This document shows positions 38,512 to 52,839 of a stretch of 64,000 nt of DNA, piece by piece (position 1 is the first letter of the stretch; each line of letters starts with the position of its first letter). This stretch comes from Ianthella basta. Lineage: Eukaryota > Porifera > Demospongiae > Verongiida > Ianthellidae. The stretch lies in assembly GCA_964019415.1 (NCBI GenBank), contig OZ025881.1:2329280-2393279 (forward strand). The letters run 5' to 3'. Below the pieces are notes generated by a model. That model was not told the origin of the DNA and did not search any database. It worked only from the letters and a program-made list of their open reading frames with translations. Made by a program: the position numbers and the translations under genes.

Positions 38512-41500
38512 GTGATGTTGCTTGGAGGCTGTACGACACCTATGGGTTCCCAGTGGACCTGACCCAGATCATGGCAGAGGAGAAGGGGCTGGTGGTGGAC
38601 CTGGCAGGGTACGAGGAATCAAAGCTGCGTGCTCAAGTGAGGGGAGAGGAGGGGAGGGAGGAAAGGGGGGGGGGAGGGGAGAGAGTAGAGGGGAGGGGAG
38701 GCGCGCAAGTGTTTTGATCTGGTGTGTCTAGTAATGAATGTGGAAATATTGTGAGAATACAGGTTGAGGAAGTGTCTTGAGAAGCATCTGGTGGATAAGT
38801 ACCATATGCACTTAAATATTTCACAGAATGAACTTCATGGAGGATTTTCGAAATTTCATGGTTTTATTTCCATGGATGCTCAGTTCGCCAATATTGTATA
38901 ACACAATGCATAAAATACTCTTAAAAACAAAACCATATGTACTCTGCACACCAGGTTGGCTGAAGGGTGAACTGCTACGTAAAGTGCCCGTTGTATTTGC
39001 ATCTACAAACACTGCAAAGGTGTCAATGGAACAAGGAGTATTAAGTGTGTTCATTCATTGTCCATTATTTAACAGTTATGCAACACTTTTGCCCTATTAC
39101 TTGTAAATTGAATTATTTGCGGATGGCTCCCAATCTGTAAAACTGCAAAAATGTAATTATTGAAAAATTTGGGCACATATGGAAGTGCATGCAGAAATGT
39201 CAGTGACCTTATCCTGACCTTCTTGCCCCACCTCATGTCCTGCCCACTGCAGATGATTGCCCGAGGGGAGGGCCAGGGAGTGGGTGACAGCATTAGCCTG
39301 GACGTGCATGCCATTGCCGAGCTGAAGGACAAAGGTGTCCCACCCACCAATGACTTGTTCAAGTACAACTATGCTGCCGATGAAAGTGGATGCTACAGTG
39401 AGTGTGATGGAGGGCTGAGGTAGGCTGTAACCTAGTTCCAGCCGTTTCTGCATCTTGAGGTGTCGTAATAAGTGACTTCCTGTGGGAGGGGCACTTCCTG
39501 TACAATCAACTTCCTCTTCTTTTATGGTAATTGGTTCTCTCTTTCTGTAGCAGGGTTACTTTATGTGTGCCGTGTCCATGTGTACACTGTACTGTAACTG
39601 AGGCTCCAATATGGTTCAATCCAATTTGTGACTGTATCAAACTGTGCAGTTTGCACAGTACAGTATCTTAGAGGCGTTAACATGAAGCAAAGCTACGAAC
39701 TATGAATGACAGTCACTAGCTACAACTGAAAATACACCCTTAAAGGGATGCTTCTGTCTTGCCGTAGTTCAGCCATCTGTGATACCTTCCCAGGGAAGGA
39801 TCGGGGGGAGGGGCATAGCTCCATTCCCTCCCCTCCCCCTCCATGGCCAGACCCTTAAGGGTTTTGTGCATGTTTTTGCACTAAATTGCACAGCTAACAG
39901 TAACTAATGGCCTACATTATGCCATTTAGCATTAGTCTAAGAGGAACTTGTCTAAGCTAATAGCATCTGGTGTGACTGCAAATAATATGTTCTTACCTAC
40001 GTACTTCTGGCCACTGGCAGCTGGTTTCATTTCAAGTGTGTTGGTGGCTATCTAAATGGTCTAACTGTAAGATGCTGATTCAGGCTCCACCTGTTTCCAC
40101 GGGCAGGTTCTGAATCCCTCTCTTCATCTGAGCTTTTGCAGCAAAGATAGTATGATGCCATGCATGCATTCATTACGCCTCATGACGTAAGTTGATAACC
40201 TAACTTGAGAAACCCTTTTATCATTCCTGGTTATAGCGAGGTACGTATGGAATTTGAAAGGTGCATTTGCTTAGCAAGTATGGAGATGAGCCATACCACT
40301 ACAAGTATGGCTACATGTTTTGCTAAGGAAAGAACAAATTTTCGGAATATACTCCAGTGAACAGTTTCACTGCACATGTAAGACATCCTTGCTCATCGGG
40401 AAGGAACTGGATCAGTCCACAAAGCTTTCCACATTTCACACCTCCACCATTTGTTTTAGCATCCATGGCGATTTTAATACAGTTGCATTGTCAGTTGCAA
40501 TTCATGAATTTAAGTGCATACTTCCACTCTAATGGCCAGAATGCATAATATACATTTCACCAGTATTAGAGATATTCTGTACTTACGTAACACATGCAGT
40601 TAGTACAATACAAGTGTACACCTCTATATACTGCACACTACTACAGTCCTGTCCAGTTGGAGCTAGTGCACTGCCTACTGTGTACTGAACTGGTGTTGAC
40701 TGGTCTAAACTGGTATGTGTCCAACTACACTACTAGCACTGCTCACTGTCACTTGGTGCACACGGCACACGTCAGCTCCTTCTGAGTGTTGTAGGGTGGA
40801 CAGGGTAGACCGTTACAGGTGGCCTCCACATGGTGAAACAGAGCACCCTCTGTGTCAGCTGCACTCCCAGGGATAGACTGGGGATATTTGTCCACACACT
40901 CAAAAGTGTTCCTGTAGTCAGTGTAGTGTTCTGACATCAGGTATCCTTTGTACTCAAGTGTCCAACCTGAAGGGCAGTCATCCCTCGCTGGTACAACGTA
41001 GACCGCAGATCTAGTGCTGACATGGCAGACGGCACAAGGGGCATTGTGGTTATGTACATTTCGCAAGGGAGAGCCTCCTTGCAACTGATACTCTGTCCCA
41101 TACAGTGGACTGTGGCCTTGTACTCCTGATCGGTAACTGGAGTACTTGGGATTTTTCGGCATACATAGTCTGTTGGATCCACCTCCCCTTGTTGTATAGT
41201 GTGTTCCAGCTGCAAACCCCGCATACACCAACACTGTCCCTGTCACACTAGGGCAGGTGGTCCTCCCCCACCTGATGTACACCGTGCCTCCTCCTACCGG
41301 TCCAGGTGCAGCACGCCTCTTGAGGGGACCAGCACCTGGGGGAGGGGAGGGGTCTCCATGGTTACATGGCTTGTGATTTCGGCATTGCACATGATAGACA
41401 TTAGAACCAATGAAGTTCAGGAGTGCAGGCATGTGTGTTGGTTACTTGAGATTTTGACAAACATTCCTAAATTTGTTTGGTCAAATTGTACATCATATGC

Positions 41501-52839: not shown

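Follow-up and report, generated by a model that had tools for sequence, protein, structure and literature searches.

Three intact tandem copies of the 3' half of an alanyl-tRNA synthetase gene behind a single 5' half in the sponge Ianthella basta

Background and main finding

We report that in the sponge Ianthella basta a single 5' half of the alanyl-tRNA synthetase (AlaRS) gene, AARS, is followed by three head-to-tail units of its 3' half, all on the plus strand, and that the block at 38512-52839, identified by self-comparison as the second of these units, has, to judge from its substitutions, a reading frame that selection on the protein has kept open, far more clearly than chance would allow. 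A duplicated gene half would normally be expected to decay; here two AARS back halves without a 5' part stay nearly protein-perfect at approximately 4% neutral divergence. The structure and the constraint are firm, while the mechanism is not: our favoured reading, to which we give a probability of roughly 0.5, is that the one 5' half would be spliced to any of three interchangeable 3' modules, all selected to stay intact against products that lack editing. Literature searches (titles and the openings of abstracts) returned no published case on point of such an array.

Positions refer to the window, i.e. the whole stretch of 64,000 nucleotides that was analysed (assembly GCA_964019415.1, contig OZ025881.1, positions 2,329,280 to 2,393,279 of the forward strand); higher numbers lie beyond its end. 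The array is made up as follows.

8674-18268, plus strand: AARS 5' half with the aminoacylation domain, single copy; open frame with splice sites, matching PF01411 and TIGR00344
8674-8819, 9248-9439, 13190-13334, 15599-15744, 16380-16488, 16687-16725 and 18160-18268, plus strand: exons of the 5' half
22910-36955, plus strand: copy 1, 13-exon 3' half (end of the PF01411 region, editing domain and C-Ala), stop codon at 36953-36955
36956-38511, plus strand: junction J12, consisting of sequence flanking copy 1 on its 3' side, the filler at 37197-37266 (about 70 nt) and about 1.25 kb of copied intron preceding exon E1
38512-52839, plus strand: copy 2, 13-exon 3' half without a 5' half of its own
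38512-38636, 39253-39397, 42230-42399, 42660-42773 and 43196-43333, plus strand: copy 2 exons E1-E5
44108-44248, 44462-44574, 44776-44884 and 50849-50974, plus strand: copy 2 exons E6-E9
51413-51532, 51786-51872, 52196-52309 and 52660-52839, plus strand: copy 2 exons E10-E13
52840-54374, plus strand: junction J23, homologous to J12, with the same breakpoint and filler
54375-81685, plus strand: copy 3, 13-exon 3' half, the window containing its first part (54375-64000)
54375-54499 and 55101-55245, plus strand: copy 3 exons E1 and E2, inside the window; E3-E13 lie outside it, up to 81685

Results

Exon structure and coding content of the three copies

All 13 exons of copy 2 align without gaps to those of copy 1, and length, splice sites and frame are kept in 39 of 39 exons across the three copies, in agreement with the first-pass annotation, which had stated this for the 13 exons of 38512-52839. 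Every copy has its 25 splice sites intact (13 AG acceptors, 11 GT donors and one GC donor) and a frame that is open to a single terminal stop. The GC-AG intron, which follows exon 11, is common to copies 1-3 (35989, 51873 and 80718, plus strand). Since exon lengths are equal in all copies, the modules are interchangeable exon by exon, and any exon is in phase with the next exon of a later copy.

Pfam matches on copy 2 comprise the tail of tRNA-synt_2c (PF01411), tRNA_SAD (PF07973) and DHHA1 (PF02272), such that the editing and C-Ala parts are complete. The motifs HTGTH and CGGTH, which we take to be the HxxxH and CxxxH zinc motifs of the editing site, are the same in all three translations, as had been claimed for copy 2. 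Copy 2 differs from copy 1 at 3 of 559 residues and copy 3 at 4 of 559 (protein identity 99.3-99.5%), and copies 2 and 3 are one residue apart. The observation made on the 38512-52839 block is thus confirmed, with two amendments: the second back-half copy described by the first-pass annotation is real, but a third, which starts within the window at 54375, had been missed, and the Lys-to-Thr change in exon 10, proposed as a copy-specific marker, is real but is shared with copy 3, separating copy 1 from copies 2 and 3.

Introns 2 and 8 carry further elements, listed here.

25131-25916 and 27563-28354, minus strand: short collagen-like ORFs in intron 2 of copy 1, the first with a PF01391 match below the cut-off
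40749-41441, minus strand: relative of these nested ORFs in intron 2 of copy 2, no Pfam match (40752-41441)
60254-61030, minus strand: relative in intron 2 of copy 3, in the window
31972-34520: 43-nt tandem array in intron 8 of copy 1, 59 repeats
44953-45654: 43-nt tandem array in intron 8 of copy 2, shorter, 16 repeats
77058-79220: 43-nt tandem array in intron 8 of copy 3, beyond the window

Three further nested collagen-like ORFs (minus strand) lie beyond the window within 64868-73410, and seven ORFs with the search motif are present in total; presumably they resemble the short-chain collagens of sponges. Just downstream of copy 3, at 82500-84000, there is a member of a large family with at least 47 matches including itself, the other members having 68-96% identity and lying, among the matches listed, mostly on one other contig (C12).

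Divergence and selection on the exons

Neutral divergence was taken from noncoding sequence, namely ten introns together with 1180 nt upstream of E1 and 140 nt downstream of the stop. Introns 2 (nested genes) and 8 (43-nt array) were left out, as were poorly aligned stretches. Uncorrected differences were 189/4838 for copies 1 and 2, 174/4759 for copies 1 and 3, and 206/4821 for copies 2 and 3, corresponding to corrected divergences of 0.0401, 0.0375 and 0.0440, respectively. For the same pairs dS was 0.0396, 0.0396 and 0.0369, i.e. equal to the intron divergence, and therefore silent sites have changed at the neutral pace. Gene conversion confined to the exons is ruled out, silent sites being as diverged as introns. 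dN was 0.0023, 0.0031 and 0.0008 in the same order; the dN/dS check suggested in the first-pass annotation (dN 0.0008-0.0031 vs. dS 0.037-0.040) bears out its view that the copy is kept open, and its estimate by eye of about fifteen silent changes to three replacements matches the count for copies 1 and 2 (15:3).

Private changes, given as silent/replacement, number 8/3 in copy 1, 7/0 in copy 2 and 7/1 in copy 3. Counted along the block, those of copy 2 fall in codons 114, 136, 271, 320, 327, 407 and 551, and those of copy 3 in codons 31, 34, 96, 152, 220, 244, 386 and 423. With a neutral replacement share of 0.706, obtained from simulation, the probability of these counts is 3.8e-3, 1.9e-4 and 1.1e-3, respectively, and 4e-7 for copies 2 and 3 pooled. 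On an intron clock (eight introns, 3211 columns) copies 2 and 3 should together have gained 51.3 private replacements and 11.2 coding indels, against one and zero seen; for copy 3 alone the figures are one private replacement seen and 21 expected. Four replacements distinguish the copies, three of which (codons 112, 144 and 398, copy 1 vs. copies 2 and 3) would need an outgroup to be assigned to a branch. If all three are charged to copies 2 and 3, four are seen against 51.3 expected (P = 1.6e-17) or, with an expectation of 67.2, P is below 1e-16. The share of the copy 2 and 3 branches that passed without constraint is at most 9% (95% bound), at most 23% for copy 3 alone, and the bound rises to 14-18% with the three unpolarised replacements charged to copies 2 and 3; these bounds treat the copies as lineages and are approximate owing to exchange between copies.

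Constraint extends to E1-E2, ahead of the editing domain, where copy 2 has no private replacement against 4.9 expected (P = 0.008); the corresponding constraint in copy 3 is not significant (P = 0.15). A decaying pseudogene can be rejected, as none of the 26 exons of copies 2 and 3 is broken and one private replacement is seen where 51.3 are expected.

Junctions, age and reality of the array

In the 114-kb stretch searched, the filler is present at full length only at J12 and J23. Within 150 nt of it the two junctions differ at 13 of 356 ungapped positions (3.65%; 95% interval 2.0-6.2%), and within 300 nt at 24 of 597 (95% interval 2.6-5.9%), against 206 of 4821 (4.3%; 95% interval 3.7-4.9%) where copies 2 and 3 are compared over their noncoding segments. 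A random false join cannot produce the same breakpoint and filler twice over in diverged form, which rules out a duplication that is entirely false. Moreover, since the junctions are about as diverged as the copies (3.7-4.0% vs. 4.3%), the array is real and old, and constraint acted while the partial copies existed. By these figures most of the divergence would postdate the first duplication; differences that mainly predate it, in separate alleles, are ruled out by the divergence of the junctions.

That the locus might be an allelic haplotype, named in the first-pass annotation as what would refute its claim, is unlikely for the whole array, given that the junctions share breakpoint and filler and are diverged. 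Haplotype duplications are marked by arbitrary breakpoints and by alternative sequence of one locus, whereas here two diverged junctions have one breakpoint and filler in common. It would rather have arisen by an old partial tandem duplication of the AARS 3' half that was later extended to three units.

AlaRS complement of the genome

Profile searches covered the whole genome (209 Mb, 96 contigs) and gave 23 matches with TIGR00344, the alaS model, and 15 with PF01411. With these two models the AlaRS catalytic domain was found just once, upstream of copy 1, and the AlaRS 3' domains three times, all on the contig of the array. A 3001-nt query from the 5' half had a single match genome-wide at E <= 1e-30. 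The E1 region gave 75 matches, of which the three strong ones are the three copies and the others are short and repeat-like. As an assembly-wide control for duplication, though a weak one, a LeuRS query gave four matches, with the central part found once and the N-terminal part at three places that we read as probable related synthetases.

Joined to any of the three copies, the 5' half, read from the first visible exon, yields an open frame of 855 residues, with class II catalytic domain, editing domain and C-Ala in one frame, as in a whole AlaRS gene. The gene is of animal type; among solved structures its best relative is the C-Ala chain of an 'Alanine--tRNA ligase, cytoplasmic' (5t5s, E = 3e-43), which we take to be human. 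Exons for the first ~95 positions of the AlaRS profile were not seen, and a pattern search of the 114-kb stretch for N-terminal AARS motifs gave no match. The 5000 bases directly upstream of the window are N. The missing N-terminal exons may lie within this run.

A second AlaRS catalytic domain (AARS2/mitochondrial) was not found in the whole genome with PF01411 or TIGR00344, and one AARS gene may serve both cytosol and mitochondria. A sole AlaRS lineage agrees with a survey, an excerpt of which lists AlaRS among the genes for which one of two lineages was lost early in eukaryotes (PMC4558845).

A further editing gene, AARSD1-like, is present on contig C7 (TIGR00344 positions 518-566 and 644-698), its translated pieces containing HSGKH and CCGTH; we take it to be AARSD1.

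Discussion

Alternative 3' ends

According to the reading that we favour, the exon ending at 18268 would be joined to the E1 exon of any one of the three copies, with introns of 20-36 kb for the joins to copies 2 and 3, and each choice would give a full-length, nearly identical AlaRS. Among the visible exons the entry phase of E1 allows joining only from the 18268 exon or from E2. The phase of the 18268 exon fits all three modules; the first-pass annotation had pointed to this fit for copy 2, which holds, but the phase was inherited from copy 1 with the duplication and hence is not independent evidence. An enzyme with several editing domains, made by joining modules in frame, is ruled out, as E12 to E1 is out of phase.

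With the catalytic half shared, a damaged module would yield an AlaRS that charges without editing, thereby misloading tRNA-Ala with serine or glycine, and such an enzyme may do harm even beside the normal one; the harm of broken products would in turn lead selection to keep all modules intact. Excerpts of a review (PMC3158927) state that AlaRS editing lowered by a factor of two is enough to cause disease in sti mice, that the sti mutation is recessive, that removal of C-Ala lowers editing about 1000-fold and, citing other work, that an editing-defective ValRS transgene has a dominant effect. In the same excerpts the review expects a stronger loss of AlaRS editing to be likely dominant and lethal (PMC3158927). 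More tentative than use as 3' ends is the fuller scenario in which the ends would be freely interchangeable under one promoter and locked in by the toxicity of editing-less products, with no new function gained; we regard it as possible, at somewhat longer than even odds.

Several points speak against use as 3' ends: splicing past copy 1 must skip 13 exons together with the 3' end of copy 1; the copies have exchanged sequence, which blurs lineage tests; three of the four replacements are unpolarised; the constraint on E1-E2 is not significant in copy 3; and the sti mutation itself is recessive, dominant harm by an AlaRS devoid of editing being an expectation of the cited review. AATAAA or ATTAAA was found within 700 nt after the stop in copy 3 only (at +106); its absence after the other two stops is near what chance would give and is a weak hint.

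If the copies are used as alternative 3' ends, they would provide a clear natural case of redundancy kept by the harm of broken products and not by benefit, and such use would bear on how AlaRS editing shapes gene structure.

Exchange among unused copies

The most serious rival is that copies 2 and 3 are unused and that unequal crossing over or gene conversion refills them from copy 1 or from other haplotypes, such that the differences would have arisen within functional genes; this we consider improbable, though to be taken seriously. High polymorphism is plausible in marine animals, and private sites are clustered by copy (275 sites with 159 label changes against a shuffled mean of 181, P = 0.0028), which means that some exchange between copies took place; in intron 1, copies 1 and 3 differ by 1.7%, compared with 4.1-4.2% for the other two pairs. 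However, the unconstrained share of the branches, at most 9-23%, falls short of the half or more that we infer free exchange among two to three positions would predict, and the array is no recent event, given that such junctions arise in arrays alone and here have diverged to about the same extent as the copies. Should the copies nevertheless be unused, sequence exchange would here mimic purifying selection, calling for caution with dN/dS on tandem copies.

A free-standing editing protein

Transcribed from a new promoter and starting at Met20, copies 2 and/or 3 might instead encode a free editing and C-Ala protein that would clear mischarged tRNA-Ala in trans in the manner of AlaXp. Copy 2 does code for both parts in full, the first in-frame ATG of its E1 being that of Met20 (38571, context ATCATGG), and fragments of editing domain and C-Ala deacylate Gly- or Ser-tRNA-Ala and resemble AlaXp according to the excerpted review (PMC3158927). 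Yet two out-of-frame ATGs precede Met20 in E1, and such a protein would leave the constraint on E1-E2 in copy 2 unexplained. It would also overlap in role with the AARSD1-like gene on contig C7, and, with copies 2 and 3 a single residue apart, there is no sign of a distinct, diverging product. A sequence scan for coding first exons (ATG-initiated, at least 30 nt, donor score of 7 out of 9, right phase) gave none in 36956-38511, where the first-pass annotation had suggested looking for one, and none in 52840-54374. Because of this lack of a coding first exon and the constraint on E1-E2 in copy 2, use as a 3' end is favoured over a free-standing protein; of the two readings offered at first pass, the alternative 3' end is the one that we retain, while a trans-editing module is unlikely.

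Assembly effect and hitchhiking

It is very unlikely that the assembly placed two haplotypes of a two-copy array, with one real extra copy, one after the other. In that case J12 and J23 would be alleles, and the three copies are indeed about equally far apart; against this, genome searches with the 5' half and with the E1 region turned up neither a second locus nor a haplotig, the array lies within a contig listed at 7.5 Mb, and a merged two-copy array would still leave copy 3 constrained (one private replacement vs. 21 expected). Least credible is that selection for the collagen-like genes nested on the minus strand of intron 2 maintains the array, with the AARS exons hitchhiking, since, even though the number of nested ORFs with the search motif varies (two in copy 1, one in copy 2 and four in copy 3), this would explain the array and not the replacement constraint in the AARS exons, and in copy 2 the collagen stretch of the nested ORF is gone.

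Comparison with known systems

Together, the 5' half and copy 1 make an ordinary AARS gene of the AARS1 type (cytosolic or bifunctional), the difference being that here three complete 3' halves stand behind one 5' half. With AlaXp and AARSD1 the block shares its editing and C-Ala/DHHA1 content and the conserved HxxxH and CxxxH motifs; it differs in also coding for ~89 residues (E1-E2) ahead of the exon that opens the editing region and in that a start exon of its own was not found for it. Furthermore, AlaXp and AARSD1 form a lineage separate from AlaRS, whereas the block is 99.3-99.5% identical to AARS copy 1. The shared breakpoint, the short filler and the amplification of the unit resemble partial tandem gene duplications by unequal crossing over, but these are usually expected to decay, while here both frame and protein have been kept at approximately 4% neutral divergence. 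Finally, genes such as mod(mdg4) of Drosophila have alternative 3' terminal exons or 3' modules that vary, and the likeness to genes of this type lies in a shared 5' part that could be joined to several 3' ends; in I. basta, however, the modules comprise 13 exons each and code for nearly the same protein, such that their putative use as 3' ends would gain little diversity.
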